This document shows, one piece after another, positions 21 through 13,500 of a stretch of DNA of 25,115 nucleotides. Made by a program: the position numbers and the translations under genes. The stretch's first letter is position 1, and each line of letters starts with the position of its first letter. The stretch lies in the IMG/VR virus record IMGVR_UViG_3300025108_000355, positions 1 through 25,115 of that record; one strand, given 5' to 3'. The notes below the pieces were generated by a model that saw nothing but the letters and a program-made list of their open reading frames with translations, was not told where the DNA came from and searched no databases. This stretch comes from a virus.

Positions 21-620
21 TTATCCCCTCATTATTGAGTTGATAATTGACTCAATCTTTGTTTCGGCTTTTGGTTGTTCTACACCTTCGTTAACAGGTC
101 TCATAAATGCACCATGTGTGGATGGATTCGATACAAAATCAAATGCAATAAGTTCAAAGTCTGGTTGAACTTCAACAGTATCTTCACCATCTGCTTCTTT
201 CATTGGCTCAACAGAACCTAATCCTCTTGAAGAGATACCAAGTTTAATACCTGATTTAAATAATTCTTTTAAGATGTTTCCAGCGGGTGTTGATAAAACT
301 TCAACGGTTCCTAACAAGTCATCACCATCCCAATGCATTTCAATAATATTATGTGAAGCATTATTTAAATTCACAACTGAACTTTCTGGATGATCAAGTT
401 CTCCTAAAGCTCTTCTCTCCGTAACCTGATGTTCTAAATATTTTCCGACTTCTTTTAACAATACTTCTCGTGGATATATTCGTCCATTTTGGTTCTTGGC
501 TTCTGCCCGTTGTAATACACCCTTGACAATTAATTTTCCACCATTATCTTTAATGGATTCATCAATTTTTGTTATTGATATATCAAACGGTCTAACATCT
601 ACTAATAATTTTTTACTCAT
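21..620 (-). CDS. 21: Prohead core protease, T4 gp21-like
   Basis: This 199-residue protein looks like the serine protease that cleaves scaffold and capsid precursors inside the T4-type prohead before DNA packaging. Seen directly: GELDHP at residues 73-78, with the likely catalytic His77, followed by VNLNNASH; GISSRG at 128-133, with a likely catalytic serine at 130 or 131; and FDFVSNPS at 160-167, with a candidate acidic residue Asp161. The order His then Ser with this spacing fits the gp21 (S80) protease family, and the length is near the T4 protein. The start has a GGAT ribosome-binding sequence upstream. Its neighbours are the portal-side genes upstream and the start of another head gene right after its stop, as in T4 (20-67-68-21-22-23). 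The family call is firm; the exact catalytic residues are inferred. Confidence 0.88.
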   Translation of the reverse strand: MSKKLLVDVRPFDISITKIDESIKDNGGKLIVKGVLQRAEAKNQNGRIYPREVLLKEVGKYLEHQVTERRALGELDHPESSVVNLNNASHNIIEMHWDGDDLLGTVEVLSTPAGNILKELFKSGIKLGISSRGLGSVEPMKEADGEDTVEVQPDFELIAFDFVSNPSTHGAFMRPVNEGVEQPKAETKIESIINSIMRG

Positions 621-838: not shown

Positions 839-1143
839 TATTTCCCTCCCCAGGAGTTTCGTTTAATCCAAATATCACGTAAGATATCGGATACTTCTTT
901 TCTAATTTGTTTTTTAATTTCTTCCATATCACTATTGCTTACACCCTCGTCCATGAATTTATACCCAGTTTGTTTTTCAAGATTTTTCTTCTTCTTCTTA
1001 CTGGTCTTTCCAAATGCATTAGGTGTTTCAAATCCATCAATACACGCAGTAGTAGTTATTTCTTTTAGCTTCTTTTTAAATAAACTACTTGCAAGTTCCT
1101 TAACTAAAGAATTAAATTTTGTTGAGTTCTTTGTCAAGCTCAT
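838..1143 (-). CDS. Basic protein of the head gene block, unknown
   Basis: A 101-residue, lysine-rich protein of unknown function. A run KTSKKKKKNLEK lies at residues 46-57, and the C-terminal third (MEEIKKQIRKEVSDILRDIW) looks like an amphipathic helix. The gene overlaps the end of the 281-residue gene by 32 bases in another frame, and its stop overlaps the start of the next gene (TAATG), so the three small genes form one translation unit. Highly charged, helical small proteins at this position in T4-like phages are often prohead core parts (gp67 and gp68), so a core or DNA-binding role is possible. That is inference from position and composition only. Confidence 0.65.
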   Translation of the reverse strand: MSLTKNSTKFNSLVKELASSLFKKKLKEITTTACIDGFETPNAFGKTSKKKKKNLEKQTGYKFMDEGVSNSDMEEIKKQIRKEVSDILRDIWIKRNSWGGK

Positions 1144-1957
1144 AATACCTTAATAATTGAACAACTGAATTGTCGTCTGTTTGGTTTGACTCATTCAAAC
1201 AAAATTTATCGGCACAATTAATTGCCTCTTGTAATTTAATTTTTAATACTTTATCTTTAACTTTATTTACTTTTGTATTTAACTTATCTTTTAAAATAGG
1301 TATTTGATTTGATACAAAAGAAGAAAAGTTATTAGTATTTGCAATATTACTAATGTATTCTTTTAATACTTGCTTTTGAGCATCACTTAAATTAGTATAT
1401 TTTTTATTAAATTTTTCTAACAAAGCTTTATAAGATAAAATTCTTAAATCTTTATCTTTCATCTCTTCATGTATAAAAATATCAGTTTTTTCATTAGTTA
1501 TTGTCGTAACGTTTTCTAAAATAATAAAATAACTTTCTGTCTTTTCATCGGCACTTAATTCACCGATGCCTTCAAATAACTTATAAGTAGATGCATAAAC
1601 TTTATAATTAGGAACACTTGAAGAAAATAACTTATTAATATCATAATGTTCTTTAATACTCTTTATAATATTATATTTTTCTCTTCGTAATACAGAATTA
1701 TTTAACTTACCCCTCTGTCTCAATACTTCGGCCAGAAAGAAATCGGCTTTTTTATCTGTTTTAAATTTTTTGGTTGTTATCAAATTATATAATGCCAATT
1801 CTTTACCTATTTCGGTATGTTCATTGAATTGTTTTTTTATAATTTTTATAGCCGGTGAATCTTTTTTCTTATTCAAAACGTCTACTGTTACCTGTCTCAG
1901 TAGAAATTCAAATAAAAGTCCAGCGTTTCTTAATTTACTGTGTCTGAATTTACTCAT
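1112..1957 (-). CDS. Conserved-looking helical protein next to portal, unknown
   Basis: A 281-residue protein rich in lysine, asparagine and isoleucine that appears mostly alpha-helical. It begins with MSKFRHSKLRNAGLLFEFLL and continues with RQVTVDVLNKK. I have a general impression that related N-termini occur in other marine T4-like phages beside the portal gene, but I cannot name a family or function. It lies between portal and prohead protease, where T4 has gp67 and gp68, so a role in prohead core assembly is a reasonable guess. The upstream ribosome-binding sequence is weak (GGAA). The gene is preceded by a 69-bp gap, one of the few in the window, which contains an AT-rich element repeated in two other gaps. 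Confidence 0.75.
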   Translation of the reverse strand: MSKFRHSKLRNAGLLFEFLLRQVTVDVLNKKKDSPAIKIIKKQFNEHTEIGKELALYNLITTKKFKTDKKADFFLAEVLRQRGKLNNSVLRREKYNIIKSIKEHYDINKLFSSSVPNYKVYASTYKLFEGIGELSADEKTESYFIILENVTTITNEKTDIFIHEEMKDKDLRILSYKALLEKFNKKYTNLSDAQKQVLKEYISNIANTNNFSSFVSNQIPILKDKLNTKVNKVKDKVLKIKLQEAINCADKFCLNESNQTDDNSVVQLLRYYELDKELNKI

Positions 1958-1982
1958 AGATATTCCAATGTATTTTGATACA

Positions 1983-2003
1983 ATTATTCATATATAAATA
2001 TAA
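1983..2003. promoter_or_regulatory. AT-rich intergenic element, copy 1 (possible promoter)
   Basis: Within the gap between the portal and the 281-residue gene lies a 21-bp element identical to one at 22084-22104, with a shorter near-copy at 10052-10066. On the plus strand it contains TATAAATA (1993-2000), the T4 late promoter octamer; in the direction of the genes it reads TTATATTTATATATG. The repeat at equivalent positions, 13 to 33 bases before a gene start, argues for a regulatory role. Which strand is active cannot be told from the sequence. Confidence 0.45.
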
Positions 2004-2026
2004 TGTAATTTAGAATAAGTAGACGT

Positions 2027-3769
2027 TTACTCTTCTATTATATTATCTTCACTTAATAATGACGAATCTTTTTTAGGGAATTTATTTTTTAATTGATCCA
2101 AAATACCCTCACGAGCAACGGCCGTATGGGCTTTACTTGTAGCTAATGGTGATTTACCTTTGAATTCCCTCTTTCCATAACTTCTATCGGCTTTTCTAAG
2201 TTTACCATCATCTTCTCTTGGTTTATTTTTACCAAAATGTTCTTTCTCACTACCACCCCAATCACCGGGTCTTGCCATACCGTCATCATCGTCTGATGGT
2301 TCTACTGGTTGTTCCGCTGGATCTTGGCCTTCGGTTTCGATTTGTTCAAATCTATATTTTTGTTTTGTATCTTCAACAATATCATTAAATATTTGTATCT
2401 TCTTATCATTTGAAAAATCAAATATATTATCATAAATCCATTTACGACTAAATAGTTTAGTTTCCATGGCTTTTTCAGCTAATTCAACCCGTTGATTCAT
2501 TAATTCAAGTTTTTCTTGCTCATGAATCATTGATGGATTTTGTAATTCTAAATCGAAATCTATTAAATCCGAATCATCAAACCCTTGACTATACAGATGA
2601 ACTATACCAATTTTTGTCAATTCACTAACAACAATCTTTTGTAATCTTTCTATTGTACGAGCAAACCTAACATCTTCTGCAGCCAATGTGGCTTTACCAC
2701 CACTTAATCCTTCTTCATATCCAAGAAATGCTTTTGGAATCCTAAGACTTGCCATTAGTTTGTTTCTCAAGTATTCAACATCTTCTATAGCATCATTATT
2801 AGATAAACCAGGAAGAGTTTCTATTTGAGTTCCACTATCTCCACCACGAACTGGTAGGAAATAATCTTCGGTAACTGACTCTACATTATATTTTAAATTA
2901 TATTCACCAGTAGTCTGGTCGATGACAGGAACCTTTTTCATCTTATTGATGATTTTTTGCATAAATTGTTCGACTTCTCTTGGTGGTATATTTCCAACGT
3001 CAATTTTAAATATTCTTTTTTCGGGCGCTCTCATGATTCTATGTATCAACATAGCATCTTCCATAAGAGTTAATTGCTTAAATACTTTTCTACCGGCTTC
3101 TAATTGAGACCTACCATAAGGTAAAAAATTTGTATCACTCATTAATCTAAAATGAGCAATTTCATAATTTTCTTTTATTTCTTTTTTATCATCATTTATT
3201 TCAAATTGAATCAATTGTGGGTTAGCAGGATCATGGTCTTCAAGTCGTGTAATATCATAAGCACTAATTGGTTTTACATTTACGACACCATACTTGTCTA
3301 CAATATCAAGTGATAAATAAAAATCACCATACTTAGTTAGGTTTCGCATCCAACTCCATAAGTTAAATTCAATATTTATAATATCGTAATATAAATTATG
3401 AAGAATTTTACTAATTTTACTATTTTCTGTTTTTATTTTTAAAATTTCTCCCTCGATATTATCAATCGTGGATTCGTCAGAATAAATGTCAAGGGCAGAA
3501 GCAATAATCGGGTCTTGATCCATCAATTCATAATCTTTAAATAAGTCATGTTTTCTTATTTCATAAGCAGCTCTTCTATTTTGAGCTACATTATATGGAT
3601 TTGAATAGGTATTTTGCATTAATCGTTGATAACGATCAATAAAATTTGAAGTTAAACTCGTTTGAGTAAAATCCAAATCCTTAACAACCAATTGATTGTT
3701 ATCTTTTTTTCTTATTATTACATTAGATTGAAATAATCTACCTAATCTATTAAAAATATTATCTGCCAT
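2027..3769 (-). CDS. 20: Portal vertex protein, T4 gp20-like
   Basis: The portal forms the twelve-subunit ring at one capsid vertex through which DNA is packed and to which the neck joins. This 580-residue protein shows the well-known conserved block of the T4 portal family: IMRAPEKRIFKIDVGN at residues 245-260, followed by a helix; DYFLPVRGGDSGTQIETLPG at 302-321; and RIPKAFLGYEEG at 343-354. T4 gp20 has 524 residues; the extra length here is mainly an acidic then basic, low-complexity C-terminal tail (about 495 to 580) that is probably flexible. The start follows the terminase stop by three bases. In T4 the tail sheath and tube genes lie between terminase and portal; here they do not, so tail genes must lie elsewhere. 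Identification is secure. Confidence 0.95.
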   Translation of the reverse strand: MADNIFNRLGRLFQSNVIIRKKDNNQLVVKDLDFTQTSLTSNFIDRYQRLMQNTYSNPYNVAQNRRAAYEIRKHDLFKDYELMDQDPIIASALDIYSDESTIDNIEGEILKIKTENSKISKILHNLYYDIINIEFNLWSWMRNLTKYGDFYLSLDIVDKYGVVNVKPISAYDITRLEDHDPANPQLIQFEINDDKKEIKENYEIAHFRLMSDTNFLPYGRSQLEAGRKVFKQLTLMEDAMLIHRIMRAPEKRIFKIDVGNIPPREVEQFMQKIINKMKKVPVIDQTTGEYNLKYNVESVTEDYFLPVRGGDSGTQIETLPGLSNNDAIEDVEYLRNKLMASLRIPKAFLGYEEGLSGGKATLAAEDVRFARTIERLQKIVVSELTKIGIVHLYSQGFDDSDLIDFDLELQNPSMIHEQEKLELMNQRVELAEKAMETKLFSRKWIYDNIFDFSNDKKIQIFNDIVEDTKQKYRFEQIETEGQDPAEQPVEPSDDDDGMARPGDWGGSEKEHFGKNKPREDDGKLRKADRSYGKREFKGKSPLATSKAHTAVAREGILDQLKNKFPKKDSSLLSEDNIIEE

Positions 3770-3772
3770 ATT

Positions 3773-5350
3773 TTACCCCAATAACCAACTTAGGTCTTCT
3801 TTTTCACCATTAATATCCATCTCGTATGGATTATTTTTTGGTTTGTTTGATGTCATAATCGGAGACCGTTCATTTAAATTTCCAATTGAATCCACCAAAC
3901 TACTTTGAAATTCATTTCTCTCTGATTGTATACGAATAGCAGTATCCCTAATCCATAATAATATAGAATAAGACATTACTAAATCATCATTATATCCATC
4001 AAGAGCTTCGGTTTTATTGTTCTTATATATAAATACAAAAAGTTCATCAATTAATCGTGTTGATTTTAATTTTACCATCTTCTCTCTTGTATATTCTTCC
4101 ATCTTTGCCACAAGTAATGGTTTAGTTTTCATTGTAGTTGTAAAACCAGGTATTTTATTTTTATCAATATGTCGATATCTATTTGTATGTTGTATATCTT
4201 CATCAACGATTAAATGATTCTTTTCTTGATAAAAAAGATTTTCATATCCCCTATCAATAATTGTTTGTAATGTAGCCCAACCTATGTTGTTATTCTCCAC
4301 TACTAATAGAGCATCATTATATTTAGTTCCCAATTCAATTAAGAAATTACCAAACTCAGTTGTTCCTAACTGACCTTTGTATTCTGCCACTTGTTCCATT
4401 TCTTCTATATCAAAAACTTGAGCTGCACTAAAATCAGTTCCATCACCACGAGCAACGTCAGCACTTATTAAATATTGTTTTGAATAATCAGGATAACCCC
4501 ATATCCATAAATTTCTATCAAACCCACTTTTTTCATTTGGTTCACAACACATCTTTTCTTTATACCACTCCAAAATAGCAGGATCGACAACTGAACGACC
4601 TGAACTTAGAAAGTCGGCATCACATTCTTGAGCGGCTTGTGATGGTCCTAATATTCTATCTTGATCACGTCTCCATTCTTCATCTCTTTCTGGATGCTCA
4701 GACCAATGTAATTTTACCGTATTAAATTTATTAACACCATCGGTGGCATCTAACCAAGTTTTATGAAACCAATTACCAACGCCATTTGGTGTAGATATTG
4801 CCAAACAACGACCACCAGTTGCAAGTGTTTGTTGAGCTGCAGTCCATATTGTATCAATCTTTTCAATGAACGCGGCTTCATCTAATATTAACAGAGATAG
4901 AGCTTCAGAGCGACCTGCACTTTCATTAGAAGCAATAGCTTTGATTTGACTACCATTCTTAAACACCAACGACAGTTTATTATTCTCAACAATCTGTGTC
5001 TTTAGCCAAGCAGGTAATCCATCATACATAATACGAACTTTAGTTACTAAATTTTTAGCGGTATCTTTTGTTGTTGCAATACACAATACATTCTTATCAT
5101 TGTGAAATAACATCATCCATAATGAATAAGCGGCACTTAATGTTGAAATACCAAGTTGTCTTGATTTCAATACCACATTATAATCATGTTCTTCATATTC
5201 TTTTAAGACTTCCCGTTGAAAAGGATATAGTTTAAACTTAATCTTACCCCGCTGTGGATGTTGAATAGTACAGTATTGATTAATAAAATATGACGGATCT
5301 TGTACACATTTTAAATAATTTACTTTTATGGCTTGTTTTAAATTACTCAT
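3773..5350 (-). CDS. 17: Terminase large subunit, T4 gp17-like
   Basis: This is the motor and nuclease that cuts concatemeric DNA and drives it into the prohead through the portal. The 525-residue protein has an N-terminal ATPase domain with LKSRQLGIST at residues 61-70 (Walker A region), LLILDEAA at 153-160 (Walker B, with catalytic Glu158) and AISTPNG at 184-190 (coupling motif). The C-terminal RNase-H-like nuclease domain shows SADVARGDGTD at 296-306 (Asp298), LVVENN at 349-354 (Glu352) and YNDDLVMS at 453-460 (Asp455/456). The usual Walker A lysine just before S/T is an isoleucine; a lysine at residue 62 may replace it, as in lambda-type terminases. T4 gp17 has 610 residues, so this form is somewhat short. 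Its start overlaps the stop of the upstream zinc-ribbon gene by four bases (ATGA). Confidence 0.95.
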   Translation of the reverse strand: MSNLKQAIKVNYLKCVQDPSYFINQYCTIQHPQRGKIKFKLYPFQREVLKEYEEHDYNVVLKSRQLGISTLSAAYSLWMMLFHNDKNVLCIATTKDTAKNLVTKVRIMYDGLPAWLKTQIVENNKLSLVFKNGSQIKAIASNESAGRSEALSLLILDEAAFIEKIDTIWTAAQQTLATGGRCLAISTPNGVGNWFHKTWLDATDGVNKFNTVKLHWSEHPERDEEWRRDQDRILGPSQAAQECDADFLSSGRSVVDPAILEWYKEKMCCEPNEKSGFDRNLWIWGYPDYSKQYLISADVARGDGTDFSAAQVFDIEEMEQVAEYKGQLGTTEFGNFLIELGTKYNDALLVVENNNIGWATLQTIIDRGYENLFYQEKNHLIVDEDIQHTNRYRHIDKNKIPGFTTTMKTKPLLVAKMEEYTREKMVKLKSTRLIDELFVFIYKNNKTEALDGYNDDLVMSYSILLWIRDTAIRIQSERNEFQSSLVDSIGNLNERSPIMTSNKPKNNPYEMDINGEKEDLSWLLG

Positions 5351-5811
5351 CTTCTATGTTCGTGGCCTGCTAAAGCATTGGCAACAGTTTTATCAAATTG
5401 ATTTTTTTCTTTCATTTCTGTCATTTCTTGTTCATATTCCTTTAATATACCATCCCATCTTTTCTTTTCTTGGTCAGCAACCCAATCATTCCATTTACCT
5501 TCCCTATGTAAAATAGCTTCAAATTCCATTTGACAATATTGACATTTTTGAAATCTATTATAAGTTTGCTGGTCAATAGTTTTTAATATTAAACTTTTAC
5601 AATCATTACATTTATCAAATCCTTTAGGTGGTACTTTGGTGAGTTGTTTTCGTTTACCATTTTCTTTAACATATTTTCTACCACTTGGTTCTTCCCAAAT
5701 CTCACCCTCTTTTCTCATATGGATAGTTTTTCCAGTATAACCGATTCTCGGAGTACCTTGTCCACCAACTCCTGCTATTAATTTTTTTACTTTTTCTATA
5801 TTTTTACTCAT
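5347..5811 (-). CDS. Zinc-ribbon protein upstream of terminase, unknown
   Basis: A 154-residue protein with two cysteine pairs, CNDC at residues 68-71 and CQYC at 90-93, spaced as in a zinc ribbon. The N-terminal part is basic and glycine-rich (GVGGQGTPRIGYTGKT). The C-terminal part (about 105 to 154) is a charged, tryptophan-containing helix that could be a coiled coil. The gene overlaps the large terminase start by four bases (ATGA), so the two proteins are probably made together. T4 has the small terminase gp16 in this place, but gp16 is a helical ring protein without a zinc ribbon. This protein could recognise packaging DNA or act on the motor; that idea rests on location and on the general DNA/RNA-binding habit of zinc ribbons, not on a recognised family. 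Confidence 0.75.
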   Translation of the reverse strand: MSKNIEKVKKLIAGVGGQGTPRIGYTGKTIHMRKEGEIWEEPSGRKYVKENGKRKQLTKVPPKGFDKCNDCKSLILKTIDQQTYNRFQKCQYCQMEFEAILHREGKWNDWVADQEKKRWDGILKEYEQEMTEMKEKNQFDKTVANALAGHEHRR

Positions 5812-5821
5812 AACCTATTCC

Positions 5822-8800
5822 TTAAAATGTCATCAAACCAGTAATCTGGTTTAGTGGAGCAAATGCGCCTGTAAATTTATAAACATTACCATTATATTTA
5901 AAAACTATTCCCTCAGTTGGAACAACGGCATCCAATCCACCAATGGCATTTAATCTATCTAATTGTATTTTTAATTTGTTTAATTTCTTTATATCACCAC
6001 CACTTCTTATATCTTTTATAGCACTCTGTAATTTCTTTCTCATATTTTGAACTGATTTTGCTGGATTTACTGCCATCCAACCATCCATATTTTTCAATAC
6101 AGTAGCACCAACTTCAAAGAATAATTCCTCAAATGGTTTCATATTATTCTTGACCATTTTAGCATGGTCATTTTTATCAGTACTTAATACCCATTCTAAA
6201 AATTTAGGATATTCTTTAAGGTCTTTTTTAATCTGTGGAATTTTATATGACTTATCAAAGAAAGCCCATCGTTTTGTTAACTTGACTAATATCTCATTTG
6301 TTATGTTTTGATAATCTGTTTGTTTAGCTCCATTAAAAATCCATTCTTGCCAATATGATTGATGATATAAAGCAAGAGTATCATTATCCTTTAAAGAATA
6401 TTGTGATTGTAGTTTTTTTAATCTACTTAAAAACTTACCCTTTAGTTTACCAAAATCTTGATGTTTAGGTACTGTCATAAAATGTGGTTTTTTAATCTTA
6501 TAATGTTTCTGTATGTTTTGATTAACTTGTTTAATCATACCAGCCAATATTCTTGCACTATCTTTTGCCTGGCCAATTACTCTTGCACTATCGTCATATT
6601 CTAATGTTCCATGAAACATCAATTCTGTTATATCATAGTTCACTACATTTTCACTGGCTGGCCACATCACTTCTAAACTCATCCACTTAGAACCTTCACC
6701 AAATATCTTTGTTCTTTGTTTATCACTTAAAGCACCAATTGCTTTACTTAAATCTCTTACGGCATAAACAAAGGCATTTCTAATATCACCTCGTCCTTTA
6801 AATTTACTCTCCACGTCTTTTATACTTAAAGCGGTTTTACCTTTATTCTTTATATGCCCTTTATTACGAGCAGAGATTAATTTACCATTCTTCCAACTAA
6901 TCATAAGATTTTGACCATCAGTTTTTTCCGTAACGTTATCTTCACGATTTAACTGGCCGCCTAATCCCATCGTAATAATATTTTTTAAATCCTTAAAGGT
7001 TAATTCCTTGTCATCAAACGGATGACTCATATGCCCATAGGCTCCACCCATTAATAATAACTCCTTTTGTTCTTTATAAACAACTTTTAAATTACCTTTA
7101 TCTATTTGTTTATCTTTATGTAATTTTTCCATTTCTGGTTTGTTAATTACAAGTTTTGGTTTTTCATTTGGTTTACTACCAACACTCGGTACGGCATAAT
7201 AAGCTTTTCTCAATCCAAATTTCTTAGCAGCAACATGACCTTTACCACCATATTTTTTAACCAAATCTTTTTGAGCTTCTTCTTTTGAATATCTTATTTT
7301 AATACCACGTCGCATCAACCTTTGTTTGAACATTTTAACTTTAGCCGATACTTCCGTTAATGATAATACTTCTTTTACAATATCATATTCATCATGTTGT
7401 TTATTTCCCCTATTAACTTTTGTTTCTTCTGGCTCTTCAGCATCAAGTTGTTTTGCGGTTTTTGGACTATCTTTAACAATAGCTTTTCTTGCCTTTGCCA
7501 TATCATCAACATATTCATAATCTTGATTTTTTAAAATCATATCAATATGGTCTAACCATTTATTCCATAATTCAGTTCCAACATAATCTGTTAAATTTTG
7601 AGCACTTGGTTCTTGAACACCAGCAGGTCCAAAGGATACTGAATCAACAGGTCCTTTTGGATACTCTGTATCTTTAACGAAACCAAAATCTTGACTATAA
7701 TAATAATCATCATCAATTAAATTATGTGCAATTTCCCATCCTAATTTCCCAGCTTCGGTTTCGGCTCTATTTTGATATGCCTTTAAACTCGATAAGAAAC
7801 CAGGTCCATCATCAACTTCTCCGGCAGTATGTGTACCTGAATTTTCGAATAAACCCACATAATACTCAAATAACTTTTTGAATTTATTCGTCATCATAAT
7901 ATACAACCCTTTATCGAAATATCCAAATGTTTTTTTGAAAAACTTTTTCTTTTCTTTATCATCAATTTTTGGATTGCCCAGCATATCTCGTGTTTTCGTA
8001 CCACTTAAATTTCCAAATTGGGGAGCCGTAATAAAGTATCCGTGTTCTTCATATCCTTTTATATCATTCTTATTCTTTTTGTAATCTTGATAATATGTTT
8101 TACCACCACTCTTTTTAGTACCTGCTTTTAAACGACCAGCGTCTTTCTGTCCAAAGGCATAAACTACTGCTGTGGTTTCGGTATTGAATTTCTTCAATAA
8201 GTTCTTTGCCACATAAGGTGTTCTTTCTTCAATGATACGATTAGCTGGAATACCCATCTTCGTCATGTGTCGAACTTTCTCTTTAAAGTTCATTGGATGT
8301 CTTGGTGGTTTTTTAATATTAGTTGTCGTTATATAGGCTTCATCAACTTGTTTTGCCAACCACTTATATGTAGCCAAATGTCCTGAATGAAATGGTTGGA
8401 ATCTTCCACCGAATACACCAATGGTTTTTTTGATTTTACTTGGAGCTTCATTCAATTTAGCTATTTGTTTTTCTATATCCTTTATTTGCAATTTTAACTT
8501 ATGACTATTGGCTCCACTACCAAATCCTATAGCTTTTTTAATTAGTTTTTGCCTCTCATCTCTAAGTTTATTTTGTTTTATTTGGTCTTTTCTACTTAAT
8601 TTTTCATTTACTTTTTTACCGGTATCGGTTTTAGTAAATGGACCTCGTCTTAATGTTGCAAACTTTACAGGTGTCTCCATACCAAATAAGTTCTTAGGTG
8701 CTATAATTCTTAACTTAACCATCTTTGAACTATTATCAATACCCAATGTCTCAAATTCTATTTCTTTATATTTCTTACCCTTCATAGTAAGATTATGACC

Positions 8801-9613
8801 CGTAATAAACTTTTCAACTTTACTACCCTTTACGGCATTTGCCTCGTTTATTGATTCTTTCATTATCTTTTGTTTAGCAATCCATTTTTTACCAAGATGA
8901 TTTTTAATAGGTTTTTTAATAAATTTATTAATACCTTTTTTCATCAACATATCAAATTTGTTAATAGCAGCTTTTTCACCTAAAGTTTTTGAGTTATCCA
9001 CCATCATAAAATTAGCATTTCCAAACAATCCTTGAAATGATATTTTATTTTTCTGTACATCATTCCAGCTTGTTTCTACTAATTCAGGACTAAGTTTTCT
9101 TGGTCTTTCCATATTTCTTTTCTGAGCAACTTCTAAATCCGTATGGACAAATACCATAAAACAATCATATCCTATTTCTTCTAATTCTTTTTTCTTTTTT
9201 AATATTGAACCATATTTATGACCTGTTCCGTCTATAATCATTCCCAATCTACCGTTCATGTATTGTTTTTTCTGTTGTTTAGTTATATCTTTTGCATAAC
9301 TTCTCATTCCACTATAATCCTCGTAATCAGGATCTGTAAGTTGTCTAAATAAATCTTCTGGCATATCATCTAAATCTGTACCGAATCCATATTTCTTTAA
9401 TAATGTTTCAAGTGCTTTATCTTGATTGACTACTTTTAAACCATATGCTGATGTATTAACTGTTTTTGGTATACCAAACAATCCTTTAGAAACAAATCCC
9501 TTTCCACTACCAGGTCCACCAGCAAGAAATACTGCTTTAAGAATTCCAGGATCGTTAATTCCCTCTTGGAGTATTGGTTTAGTTATTTCTTCTACTAATT
9601 TTTTTAAACTCAT
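5822..9613 (-). CDS. Kinase / NadM-like nucleotidyltransferase / ligase-like fusion
   Basis: A 1263-residue protein with three enzyme-like parts. (1) Residues about 22-215 form a P-loop kinase: AGGPGSGKG at 31-39, IIDGTG at 126-131, VFVHTDLEVAQKRN at 154-167 with RPRKLS following, like zeta-toxin or polynucleotide-kinase type NMP-kinase folds. (2) Residues about 397-575 form a HxGH nucleotidyltransferase: GRFQPFHSGH at 403-412 and LSGTKTRDML at 536-545, the signature pair of archaeal-type NMN adenylyltransferase (NadM). (3) Residues about 855-1263 carry ligase adenylyltransferase motifs: EKTDGQN at 896-902 (likely nucleophile Lys897), SARNKGH at 914-920, WMSLEVMWP at 977-985, EGIVFK at 1234-1239 and VYKF at 1244-1247. 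Residues 590-850 match nothing I know. RNA repair, NAD synthesis or both are possible. The start overlaps the Nudix stop by four bases. Confidence 0.85.
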   Translation of the reverse strand: MSLKKLVEEITKPILQEGINDPGILKAVFLAGGPGSGKGFVSKGLFGIPKTVNTSAYGLKVVNQDKALETLLKKYGFGTDLDDMPEDLFRQLTDPDYEDYSGMRSYAKDITKQQKKQYMNGRLGMIIDGTGHKYGSILKKKKELEEIGYDCFMVFVHTDLEVAQKRNMERPRKLSPELVETSWNDVQKNKISFQGLFGNANFMMVDNSKTLGEKAAINKFDMLMKKGINKFIKKPIKNHLGKKWIAKQKIMKESINEANAVKGSKVEKFITGHNLTMKGKKYKEIEFETLGIDNSSKMVKLRIIAPKNLFGMETPVKFATLRRGPFTKTDTGKKVNEKLSRKDQIKQNKLRDERQKLIKKAIGFGSGANSHKLKLQIKDIEKQIAKLNEAPSKIKKTIGVFGGRFQPFHSGHLATYKWLAKQVDEAYITTTNIKKPPRHPMNFKEKVRHMTKMGIPANRIIEERTPYVAKNLLKKFNTETTAVVYAFGQKDAGRLKAGTKKSGGKTYYQDYKKNKNDIKGYEEHGYFITAPQFGNLSGTKTRDMLGNPKIDDKEKKKFFKKTFGYFDKGLYIMMTNKFKKLFEYYVGLFENSGTHTAGEVDDGPGFLSSLKAYQNRAETEAGKLGWEIAHNLIDDDYYYSQDFGFVKDTEYPKGPVDSVSFGPAGVQEPSAQNLTDYVGTELWNKWLDHIDMILKNQDYEYVDDMAKARKAIVKDSPKTAKQLDAEEPEETKVNRGNKQHDEYDIVKEVLSLTEVSAKVKMFKQRLMRRGIKIRYSKEEAQKDLVKKYGGKGHVAAKKFGLRKAYYAVPSVGSKPNEKPKLVINKPEMEKLHKDKQIDKGNLKVVYKEQKELLLMGGAYGHMSHPFDDKELTFKDLKNIITMGLGGQLNREDNVTEKTDGQNLMISWKNGKLISARNKGHIKNKGKTALSIKDVESKFKGRGDIRNAFVYAVRDLSKAIGALSDKQRTKIFGEGSKWMSLEVMWPASENVVNYDITELMFHGTLEYDDSARVIGQAKDSARILAGMIKQVNQNIQKHYKIKKPHFMTVPKHQDFGKLKGKFLSRLKKLQSQYSLKDNDTLALYHQSYWQEWIFNGAKQTDYQNITNEILVKLTKRWAFFDKSYKIPQIKKDLKEYPKFLEWVLSTDKNDHAKMVKNNMKPFEELFFEVGATVLKNMDGWMAVNPAKSVQNMRKKLQSAIKDIRSGGDIKKLNKLKIQLDRLNAIGGLDAVVPTEGIVFKYNGNVYKFTGAFAPLNQITGLMTF

Positions 9614-10038
9614 GCCTTTAACTCCAAAGCAACTCTTAAATTATCTTCAATTGGTCGTGGTAATGACTTAACATCATAGTATCCCCAATCAGAATGTTCT
9701 TCATCAAGTTTAGGTTCAGGTTTATTCTGTAATTCAATCATATATAACTTTACAATTCTATTGTACTTAGAGTCTTTTATCGTATCTAAATATACTAAAG
9801 AATTGATATCAATGTCAAGCTTTGTTTCTTCTTGAAATTCTCGATGAGCACCCTGTATGAACTTTTCTCCACTCTCAACGTGTCCCATTGGAACTGCCCA
9901 AAAGTTTGGATACTTTCCAGCAGTTTCAGAACGGCGAACCAGTAATACTTGATTTTCTGATTTAACTACAACCCCACCAATTTTTTTTGGTTTTTCTATA
10001 TTGAGTTCAATTAAATCTTTTAATTTTGGTATAGACAT
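9610..10038 (-). CDS. Nudix hydrolase
   Basis: A 142-residue single-domain Nudix protein, which would cleave a nucleoside diphosphate linked to another group. The Nudix box is clear: Gly52, Glu58, then REFQEE at residues 66-71 (G-x5-E-x7-R-E-x-x-E-E), with lysine at 73 in place of the usual glycine and Leu74 after it. A WAVPMGHVESGE segment leads into the box. Candidate substrates are dNTPs, ADP-ribose, NAD(H) or capped RNA ends; the sequence does not decide. A SQPWW-type motif of NADH pyrophosphatases is not seen. The gene overlaps the kinase/NadM-like/ligase gene by four bases (ATGA) and has a strong AGGAGA ribosome-binding site. NadM and Nudix domains are joined in some bacteria and in vibriophage KVP40, so this pairing may be functional. 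Confidence 0.9.
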   Translation of the reverse strand: MSIPKLKDLIELNIEKPKKIGGVVVKSENQVLLVRRSETAGKYPNFWAVPMGHVESGEKFIQGAHREFQEETKLDIDINSLVYLDTIKDSKYNRIVKLYMIELQNKPEPKLDEEHSDWGYYDVKSLPRPIEDNLRVALELKA

Positions 10039-10051
10039 AGATATTCTCCTA

Positions 10052-10066
10052 CATCTATAAATATAA
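10052..10066. promoter_or_regulatory. AT-rich intergenic element, copy 2 (possible promoter)
   Basis: In the 50-bp gap before the Nudix gene, 15 bases match the elements at 1989-2003 and 22090-22104 with one difference. The plus strand again holds TATAAATA (10056-10063); in gene direction it reads TTATATTTATAGATG and runs straight into the AGGAG ribosome-binding site of the Nudix gene. It may separate transcription of the Nudix/fusion-enzyme pair from the upstream endolysin and fibre genes. Confidence 0.4.
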
Positions 10067-10088
10067 GTTATTATAATTCAACTTAATA

Positions 10089-10565
10089 TTAAACTTCTAA
10101 ACCACGTCTAAACCAACCAAAGTAAAACTTTTCCAAGTCTGGTTTACGAGTTACTAAATCAGCATAATATTTAATACGATAAGCACGAACTCTTTCTAAT
10201 TCAACACCAGTTAGAGCACCAATTGTCTTTGGTCCTAATCCACCATCTACTTTTAAATTAGCACCCTTGGCATTAGCGGCTTGTTGTAGAATTTTTACTG
10301 CCCTACCTCTACCTTGATTCACACACATATCAAAATAGATATGTTTTAAATCATCTGGTAAATCATCTACTTTGTTCTTATCCCAATAGTCTTCCTTGTA
10401 GATTTCTTTAGCACCTTCTTTGGTGAGATTTTTGATATCCACATCTGGATGACTTCTCTTGGCTATGCCAAAATTAGTCTCTCCGCCAGGATCATCAGGA
10501 TCGTTTACGTATCCACCCTCGTGGTGTAGAACTACTTCTATTATTTCATCGAATTTTACTAACAT
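10089..10565 (-). CDS. Endolysin, GH108-type muramidase
   Basis: A 158-residue lysozyme-like protein expected to cut peptidoglycan, either for lysis at the end of infection or, as it sits beside fibre genes, as a virion-borne wall hydrolase. The N-terminal HHEGGYVNDPDDPGGETNFG at residues 14-33 is the signature of glycoside hydrolase family 108, with Glu16 as the likely catalytic acid. YWDKNKVDDLPDDL and a short helical stretch to VNQG follow, and the C-terminal part (VDGGLGPKTIGAL at 106-118, FYFGWFRRG at 147-155) is the peptidoglycan-binding part usual for this family. The length is normal. There is no signal peptide, so a separate holin would be needed for release as a lysis enzyme; no holin is evident nearby. 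An AGGA sequence precedes the start, 11 bp after the giant fibre stop. Confidence 0.92.
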   Translation of the reverse strand: MLVKFDEIIEVVLHHEGGYVNDPDDPGGETNFGIAKRSHPDVDIKNLTKEGAKEIYKEDYWDKNKVDDLPDDLKHIYFDMCVNQGRGRAVKILQQAANAKGANLKVDGGLGPKTIGALTGVELERVRAYRIKYYADLVTRKPDLEKFYFGWFRRGLEV

Positions 10566-10576
10566 AACTTTAATTC

Positions 10577-13500
10577 CTATTTGTTTTCTAAATCCTCTAT
10601 TCGTTTATTTAATTGAATAATATACAAAGATAATTCCTCAATTTTTTCTAACAACAACATATCTCTATCACTAACACTCAATATTTTCCATTTATCCATA
10701 TCATTCATATCTGGAACATTTGGTAAATGTTTATTTTCAGTAACAAATGTTTCTAATTCTGATATAGTTTGTAACACATATGTTGAGTCATAAACATAGT
10801 CAGGAACATTTGTAAGACTAGCGCCATCACCAGCAAATGATGTTGCTATAGTATGACCTAATGAAGCAGTACTGTAAGATGATTGTGAAATATGACCTAA
10901 TACATTAATATCCTGTAGTACATCTAATGAACCAAATAAATTAACTTGTCCTGCCATATCAAGTGTAGATGCAGAACCCGTAATGCGTGAATCTCTAAAT
11001 GTTCGTCCTGTCGTGGAATCTCCTAAAGTATATTCATCAATAACTTCACCACCAGTACCAACTACATAAAATCCACTATCGTCAGGTTTAAAAAACATTC
11101 CATTTGGACCTGATTCTTCTGAACTTACACTAAAGCTATTTACGAATCTTGCACTACTGATGTCCCAATTTTTACTTAAATTATATTGATATATTTCATC
11201 TTCGGTTGAACCCACAATGAACATTTGACTTCCGTCTTGTTTGAATTTTATTCCATATACATATGTTTCTTCAATTGGAACATCCAGTTGATATTCAAAA
11301 CTTAAACTTCCGATATCAAAAGCAGAACCCGTTACGGCATATTGCAATACTGCATCAGTAGTCGTGCCGACAACATAAACTTTTGTTCCATCTGGTTTCC
11401 AATCGATTCCGTATGGATAGTCTTCGTTTACTGCATTATTAACAGTTCCAATATTAATGCTTTTAACTGCACTTGCAGTACTGATATCCCAAGGAGTTGT
11501 TAAATTATATGAATTTATACCATCGTCCCCACTTCCAACAACAAACAACCAATATCCATCAATACTCATGGTGAATCCATATATGTTTGATTCTTGACTT
11601 GATACGGATAATTCAGCAACCTTTGCTGTATTTAAAGTACTGATGTCCCACGGAGTTGATAATGTATATTGATAAATTTTATCTACATTATAATCATCTG
11701 ATAAAAAAACTACTTTACCATCAGGCTTAAAGTATATATCCGTAATATCACCAATCGTAGCAGGATCCGCAGAAGTTTGTTTATAAACCGCAGTCGTTAT
11801 GTCAATTGGATTTGATATATTTGAAACATTAATACTACCAGTTAAACTGCTGATACCATGATTGAAATTAGCTTCTGTTTTAAAATCATTTGCCCAAGGT
11901 TGTTGTAAAGTTAACTTACCTTTTATATCAACATCACCATAAATATCAGTACTGGCTCCAATGGTTAATTTTTGACTATAAGAACCTGTATCAAAACCTT
12001 GAAATTTATACTCATTTACTTCATCCTGATTTGAACCAATTATATAAAATCCACTATTGTCAGGTTTTAAAAATAGTCCGTATGAATAATTTTCTTCTGA
12101 ACTTACACTAAAGACATTTATGACTCTAGCAGTGCTCATGTCCCAATTTTTACTTAAATTATATTGAATTACTTCATCTTTCTGGTTACCCACAATGAAC
12201 ATTTGACTTCCGTCTTGTTTGAATCGTACTGCAGTTGGCCATGATTCTTCAATTGGAACATCCAGTTGATATTCTAAACTTAAACTTCCGATATCAAAAG
12301 CAGAACCCGTTACGGCATATTGCAATACTGATTTAGTAGTATTACCGACAACATAAACTTTTGTTCCATCTGGTTTCCAATCGATTCCGTATGGTGTACT
12401 TTCTGAAGCAACTCTATTGGCTATATTATCTAAATCAATGCTTTTACCAACAGTCATGGTTGTCAAATCCCAAGGTATGGGTAATGTGAATTCAGTAATT
12501 CCATCTATTGTAGAACCAACAAAATAAACTTTTGTTCCGTCTGGATGAAAAGCCATTCCGAATGGCTGGGTTTCAGTTCCTAGGGTTTGAACTGTCAAAT
12601 ACTGTTGAGTTAATACATCCCAGGGAGTTTTTAATTCAAATGAATATATTTTTCCACTACTTTGACCATACAAGACAAATAACTTTCTTCCGTCAGGTGA
12701 AAAATACAAATCAAATGCATTATCTATTGACACATTACCATCAAATCCATAATCATAGGTATATCCAGCATCTTTTGAACCTTTAATGTGAACCGCAGTC
12801 GTTATGTCAATTGGATTTGATATATTTGAAACATTAATACTACCAGTTAAACTGCTGATACCATGATTGAAATTAGCTTCTGTTTTAAAATCATTTGCCC
12901 AAGGTTGTTGTAAAGTTAACTTACCTTTTATATCAACATCACCATAAATATCAGTACTGGCTCCAATAGTTATGCTTTTACTTCCTGTCACATAGCCATG
13001 TGTAAATTTATACTCATTTATTTCATCTCCACCAGTACCAGCTACATAAAATCCACTATCGTCAGGTTTTAAAAATAGTCCATGTGGATGCGGTTCTTCT
13101 GAACTTACACTAAAGCTATTTACGAATCTTGCACTACTGATGTCCCAATTTTTACTTAAATTATATTGATATATTTCATCTTCGGTTGTACCCACAATGA
13201 ACATTTGACTTCCGTCTTGTTTGAATTTTATTCCATTTACATATGTTTCTTCAGTTGGAACATCCAGTTGATATTCAAAACTTAAACTATGAATATCAAA
13301 ACCAGAACCCGTTACGGCATATTGCAATACTGCATCAGTAGTCTGACCAACAATATAAACTTTTGTTCCATCTGGTTTCCAATCGATTCCTTTTGGAGCA
13401 CTTTCTGAAGCAACTCTATTGGCTATATTATCTAAATCAATGCTTTTACCAACAGTCATGGTTGTCAAATCCCAAGGTATGGTTAATGCGAATTCAGAAA

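Follow-up and report, generated by a model that had tools for sequence, protein, structure and literature searches.

A modular protein of a T4-like marine phage, probably a packaged cargo polyprotein with prohead-protease motifs at its module borders

Modular architecture of the polyprotein

The DNA analysed here is the 25,115-nucleotide stretch of the IMG/VR virus record IMGVR_UViG_3300025108_000355 (hereafter the window, a 25-kb viral contig), and our subject is an intact open reading frame (ORF; 5822..9613, minus strand), which encodes a modular polyprotein of 1263 residues rich in lysine (15%; pI 9.7). Residue numbers are those of this ORF and positions are those of the window. As a preliminary description of the same DNA had stated, a single chain holds three sets of motifs, namely the kinase P-loop GGPGSGKG (residues 32-39); the HxGH site GRFQPFHSGH (403-412) with LSGTKTR (536-542); and the ligase-type motifs KTDG (897-900), SLEV (979-982), EGIVFK (1234-1239) and YKF (1245-1247).

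The chain was mapped as follows, all modules lying on the minus strand and slashes marking the presumed cut positions. The capsid-targeting-like leader MSLKKLVEEITKPILQE (9563..9613; residues 1-17) ends in LQE/G, the starting border of the P-loop kinase module (8843..9562; residues 18-257; P-loop at 9497-9520), which itself ends with MKE/S and INE/A. Next come a small basic module termed PRE (8603..8842; residues 258-337), a lysine-rich coil (8447..8602; residues 338-389) ending in LNE/A, and a NadM-like HxGH nucleotidyltransferase (NT) module (7865..8446; residues 390-583; HxGH motif at 8378-8407) ending in LFE/YYVGLFE/N. They are followed by an acidic module, DDGP (7370..7843; residues 591-748), a basic module, VSKK (7070..7351; residues 755-848), with LTE/V directly ahead of it, and an RNA-ligase-like module (5825..7069; residues 849-1263; KTDG at 6914-6925, Glu981 at 6671-6673 and EGIVFK at 5897-5914).

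Identity of the modules

Both the P-loop kinase and the NadM-like NT of the preliminary description were borne out by profile searches. For the kinase, the Pfam match to Zeta_toxin barely passed the cut-off (2.3e-5), and that to AAA_33 fell under it in the window ORF (1e-4) but passed it in relatives; among PDB profiles, PSTK was the closest (5e-5), followed weakly by the bacterial Pnkp kinase and zeta toxin. The NT module matched CTP_transf_like (2.6e-9, residues 400-484, past the cut-off), it contains both HxGH and SxTxxR-type motifs, and its nearest solved relative is the archaeal NadM (1f9a, 5e-5), with the Synechocystis NMN adenylyltransferase (NMNAT)/Nudix protein at 1.6e-3. The HxGH signature is present in the window protein, but its first catalytic histidine is not conserved, being replaced in about half of the relatives (GRFQPFGPHH).

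The C-terminal 400 residues or so gave no match in the Pfam and PHROG scans, and a sequence search of the PDB with the ligase profile gave none either. Nevertheless, the ligase motifs I (KxDG), III, IV and V occur there in the expected order, and across 40 relatives each of the residues K897, D899, G900, E981, E1234, G1235, K1239 and K1246 reaches a conservation of at least 97%. Four of these residues (K897, E981, E1234 and K1246) are invariant also in a wider alignment taking in distant phages; K1239 is replaced in the more distant ones. The structure predicted with moderate confidence (pLDDT 72; pTM 0.52) found RNA ligases as its best five Foldseek matches in the PDB (E 0.18-0.48, none significant), and its named matches among the BFVD viral models, beyond close relatives, were mostly RNA ligases, mostly with E values of 0.01-0.06. 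Homology to T4 Rnl1 or to DUF6267 is not claimed, as the profile-profile (hhalign) scores lie inside those of shuffled-column decoys (reached by 47/150 and 17/100 decoys, respectively). The module is therefore named RNA-ligase-like rather than a member of the Rnl1 family, a designation to which the ranking of predicted folds points weakly. With this wording, the third domain of the preliminary description holds as well.

Relatives and module shuffling

Relatives of the polyprotein were found on hundreds of IMG/VR contigs (215 relatives in one scan and at least 523 in a ligase-profile scan), which shows that they are common in the sea. Cultured relatives include Microcystis phage Mel-JY01, Methylophilales phage Melnitz and Pelagibacter phage HTVC008M. 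Architectures were counted on 56 non-redundant proteins picked by their ligase-like domain, and 34 module orders were observed among them. Every protein of this ligase-picked set has both the NT and the ligase-like domain, and only 29 of the 56 have the kinase. The three-domain fusion previously noted is real, but it is modular. The PRE module occurs in 17/56 relatives, always (17/17) with a cut motif at most three residues from its start. Besides the kinase, a dozen other modules are variably present, including a CCA-adding enzyme, an HD module and an N-terminal nucleophile (Ntn) hydrolase. The CCA-adding enzyme, limited to one non-redundant relative, is accompanied by HD in loci L046/L048 (Pfam PolyA_pol 1.2e-29); one relative has a zincin-like HEIDHA stretch, and others have small basic modules. 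In the L071 polyprotein, a module at about residues 1194-1273 has a weak match, under the cut-off, to the haem-binding Tiki/ChaN proteins (PF04187, E 0.03). In other phages, the kinases and the ligase are encoded alone, each with its own leader.

Cut motifs at the module borders

The T4 prohead protease gp21 cleaves after L/I-X-E, and replacing Glu by Asp at P1 prevents the processing of T4 IPIII (PMC9026906). The module borders coincide with the gp21 consensus, in the form [LIVM]xE/, and most border types carry it. A further test made no use of the way modules were defined: of the points at which BLAST homology between relatives stops, 12.4% coincided exactly with [ILVM]xE/, for a motif density of 1.48% (8.4x), and with [IL]xE the value reached 9.6x background. 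Nine control patterns gave 0.1-1.7x, among them hxD (1.1x), hxK (1.5x), hxG (1.0x), hxN (0.9x), hxS (0.1x) and polar-xE (1.7x). Module starts lay at most one residue from a motif in 177 of 237 cases (8.9 expected), a count to be read knowing that they were partly set at motifs in the seed protein. Between modules, [LIVM]xE was found 570 times, as compared to 281 in composition-preserving shuffles, whereas inside the kinase, NT, ligase, Ntn and CCA domains there was no overall enrichment (367 versus about 393). In relatives, the major capsid protein bears QLI[DS]E/[ASN] in its pro-region, at the place where gp23 is cleaved; relatives were used for this comparison because a capsid protein gene was sought in the window and not found. 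Downstream of the capsid gene of L084/L085, an ORF (3859-4389) starting with MKLKSYLNAGTLITMENGDQKAIESLTEGD has a Hint/intein-type-like domain.

Leaders and virion proteins

Most of the complete relatives start with a leader of 15-17 residues ending in the cut motif, followed by a varying first module, and leaders such as MNKLTxWLxxPFLxE/ stand ahead of different modules. The window ORF likewise shares a feature with T4-type cargo carrying a capsid-targeting sequence (CTS), in that its N-terminus is a short leader with [LI]xE at the end (MSLKKLVEEITKPILQE/G). Comparable leaders precede the standalone kinases of Melnitz (MKTFAELQE/G) and HTVC008M (MIPFILKE/G) and a jumbo-phage ligase (MKFLKSYEEFLNENLILE/G), and those of T4 ipII and ipIII read MKTYQEFIAE/A (NC_000866). 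In T4, enzymes fused to the 10-residue CTS need no other signal to be packaged and delivered (PMC9026906). The cytidyltransferase of cyanophage S-SM1 (gene cluster T4-GC190), whose leader is MKKFSAFLNE/A, was detected in virions by mass spectrometry (MS; PMC3037559). Other cyanophage virions contain NMNAT-like proteins, for which the authors note carry-over during purification as a possible source.

Two gene rows were observed in this connection. The cyanophage cluster L196 (syn9, 6200-11647), L312 (S-SM1, 951-5837) and L313 (P-SSM2, 2650-5292) comprises a DUF6267-like protein, the leader-bearing cytidyltransferase, and then proteins rich in [LIV]xE sites, which are likely further head cargo. 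In L089 (HTVC008M, 8245-12438), separate adjoining genes encode a DUF6267 protein with the ligase-like motifs KWDG and EGYVAV, a small module, the leader-bearing kinase and an HxGH-type NT fused to DUF5824; this row is a split version of a similar module set.

The Ntn-hydrolase module of relatives

A module of about 290 residues found in relatives gave no match in the Pfam and PDB sequence-profile searches, and it was identified from its predicted fold. This fold (A5 model) matches 2x1e (E 9.2e-8, probability 1.0), and its matches are the mature isopenicillin N acyltransferase, bile salt hydrolases and penicillin V acylase, enzymes that require a free N-terminal cysteine. Cys1, Arg18 and Asp19 of the module are invariant. 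Among 34 loci of one scan, those fused copies that were readable have the cysteine directly after [IV][DH]E/, so that a cut by the prohead protease at this place would create the N-terminal nucleophile of the Ntn enzyme, the N-terminus of the cysteine presumably being free thereafter. Alternatively, activation may occur through self-cleavage, the usual maturation route in this class of hydrolases. In standalone Ntn genes, a short leader, MK.H.EE, lies directly ahead of the cysteine; those of L176, L178-L180, L185-L187 and L189 start with MK.H[ILM]EE/C, a minimal leader before the catalytic residue.

Genomic context

On one side, the polyprotein gene is flanked by an endolysin/Nudix pair, and on the other by genes for the terminase large subunit (3773..5350, minus strand; Pfam scan), the gp20-like portal protein (2027..3769, minus strand; Pfam/PHROG scans) and the prohead protease (Peptidase_S77, T4 gp21 family; 21..620, minus strand; 7.9e-31). 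This neighbourhood places it among the head and packaging genes of a T4-like phage. The prohead protease, presumed to be the cutting enzyme, matches gp21 in an alignment that includes the two conserved catalytic motifs (His, LGELDHP; Ser, GISSRG). Of 152 loci, 138 have the terminase no more than 2.5 kb downstream from the polyprotein. The Nudix hydrolase gene (9610..10038, minus strand; Pfam scan) overlaps the start of the polyprotein ORF, but it was rejected as a fixed partner, being nearby in only 14/51 loci. Two small proteins were also noted in the window. Near the portal gene, a lysine-rich 101-residue ORF (838-1143; pI 9.8; 20% Lys) in which [LIV]xE occurs several times possibly encodes another internal head protein, and a basic 154-residue protein (5347-5811), which has a zinc-ribbon-like CxxC pair and overlaps the terminase start, could be a small terminase or a cofactor.

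Proposed processing pathway and its alternatives

We propose that the product of the ORF is probably a packaged cargo polyprotein, which a T4-like marine phage processes with its prohead protease. The leader would act as a CTS to bring the chain into the prohead, where the gp21-type protease would cleave after the glutamate of [LIV]xE at the module borders. The products would be the leader, the kinase, the small modules, the NT and a piece joining VSKK to the ligase-like module. The freed modules, mostly basic, would remain with the DNA, enter the host with it and act at once. Such packaging, cuts after glutamate and injection would account for the leader and the motif, as well as for the shuffled modules, the place of the gene and its product's richness in lysine. 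More tentatively, the cargo might mend or refill RNA and/or NAD damaged by host defence. This idea comes from the presence of kinase, RNA-ligase-like and NMNAT-like modules, and of a CCA-adding enzyme with HD in a relative; as a conjecture it is reasonable when applied to the modules as a set, but not to the fact that they are fused.

Several points weigh against the proposed processing. The motif is short and occurs also inside folded domains, so that the sites alone are no proof of cuts, and the NT domain by itself holds more motifs than expected from shuffling. At the border of the ligase-like module, LLxE/GG is found in 22/56 relatives, but the glutamate is missing in the window protein (ELLLM/GG) and in 33 others of the 56; consequently, the ligase-like module would stay joined to the upstream VSKK. 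The NTs of virion proteomes, which belong to the same superfamily in other phages, were not retrieved by tblastn with the window protein. The cleavage, packaging and injection of the window polyprotein are proposed by analogy with T4.

The preliminary description suggested a single multifunctional enzyme, whose kinase, NMN adenylyltransferase and ligase would remain in one piece and link reactions of NAD synthesis or of RNA or DNA end repair. All three catalytic motif sets are indeed intact in one chain, and the NT and ligase-like domains occur together in all the ligase-picked relatives. However, the kinase is absent from 27/56 of them, unrelated modules are inserted at the borders, and the kinase and ligase exist as standalone genes in other phages. 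We regard this reading as improbable because modules are shuffled and lost independently, are found alone with leaders, and have prohead-protease motifs between them. There is little likelihood, too, that the chain is an injected protein of the polyvalent type, left uncut or cut by another peptidase, with [LIV]xE resulting from the composition of the linkers. A precedent exists in the phage polyvalent proteins, injected multidomain chains that in some cases have embedded peptidases (PMC5512222), and the zincin-like stretch of one relative fits with it. Yet the motif is twice as frequent between modules as in composition-preserving shuffles, glutamate-containing and hydrophobic control motifs are barely enriched, and the Pfam scan detected no peptidase domain in the window protein.

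Two further readings concern function and are compatible with the cargo proposal. The modules may serve RNA (tRNA) repair, the kinase acting on 5'-OH ends and the RNA-ligase-like module sealing them, a role that we consider possible while leaning slightly away from it. The kinase profile matches PSTK and Pnkp, the predicted ligase fold ranks RNA ligases first, and L046/L048 carry PolyA_pol and HD; on the other side, the ligase profile does not score above shuffled decoys against T4 Rnl1, the CCA-adding enzyme occurs in only one non-redundant relative, and it is not obvious what the NT would do in RNA repair. A supply of NAD by a nicotinamide riboside kinase, an NMN adenylyltransferase and the neighbouring Nudix, after the pattern of NadR and NadM-Nudix proteins, seems more doubtful. 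The proximity of the NT to NadM and NMNAT/Nudix, the overlapping Nudix gene, and the jumbo-phage fusions of a HIGH nucleotidyltransferase to Nudix or to a P-loop kinase (PMC7824862) speak for it. Conversely, the PDB search places the kinase closer to PSTK, Pnkp and zeta than to NadR, Nudix is near only 14/51 loci, and half of the relatives have lost the first catalytic histidine of the NT.

Significance and comparison with known systems

If the cargo polyprotein proposal is correct, it explains the long and variable multi-enzyme genes lying beside the terminase in marine T4-like phages, and injected cargo could be read from sequence by cutting after [LIV]xE and inspecting the pieces. The literature searched, which included few subscription papers, yielded no report of a head protease processing a phage polyprotein; per these searches, this would be the first phage capsid polyprotein with a modular enzymatic cargo freed by the head-maturing protease. 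The broader proposal, which we hold to be rather likely, is that a tailed phage, in the manner of RNA viruses and their proteases, splits a cargo polyprotein of exchangeable enzymes in its capsid by the head-maturation protease, including the activation of an Ntn hydrolase through a cut that makes its catalytic N-terminal Cys, and that the lineage swaps modules at the protease sites, to form a rapidly evolving injected tool kit.

The polyprotein shares features with several known systems. Like NadR and NadM-Nudix proteins (Synechocystis slr0787 type), it has an NMNAT-like domain accompanied by a P-loop kinase within the chain or by a nearby Nudix. Unlike NadR, where the NMNAT precedes the ribosylnicotinamide kinase, its kinase is N-terminal of the NT and has a PSTK/Pnkp/zeta profile; unlike both, it adds the ligase-like and other modules, with cut motifs between them. 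Its kinase and ligase motifs are of the same general type as those of T4 Pnkp and Rnl1, but the T4 enzymes are separate and the profile comparison with Rnl1 scores at decoy level. The cyanophage T4-GC190 cytidylyltransferase and its NMNAT relatives are also HIGH-superfamily NTs, have a capsid-targeting-like leader and were found in virions by MS, but in the cases examined they are separate genes, unfused to a ligase domain of the window type. Similarly to phage polyvalent proteins, which are multidomain, shuffled and thought to be injected, the window family has numerous architectures and lies beside the terminase in the phage late region. In contrast, the passages of PMC5512222 that were consulted ascribe the release of polyvalent domains to embedded peptidases and describe no use of the prohead protease, and the domain sets differ; ART, GNAT and embedded peptidase domains, typical of polyvalent proteins, were not detected in the Pfam/PHROG scans of the window protein. 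The engineered T4 CTS fusions, which link the IPIII sequence to foreign enzymes (PMC9026906), likewise combine a leader, a cut site and an enzyme cargo sent to a cell, but they are man-made and carry a single cargo. The closest parallel is with the T4 proteins IPI-III and Alt, which have a CTS and are cut by gp21: here too, there is a short leader ending in [LI]xE and a gp21-family protease in the same phage, and the cargo would be delivered with the DNA. T4 makes one such protein per gene, whereas the window chain strings together several exchangeable modules with internal cut motifs. Both CTS cargo and prohead proteolysis have precedents in T4; the new element is a chain of exchangeable enzyme modules with cut motifs between them.

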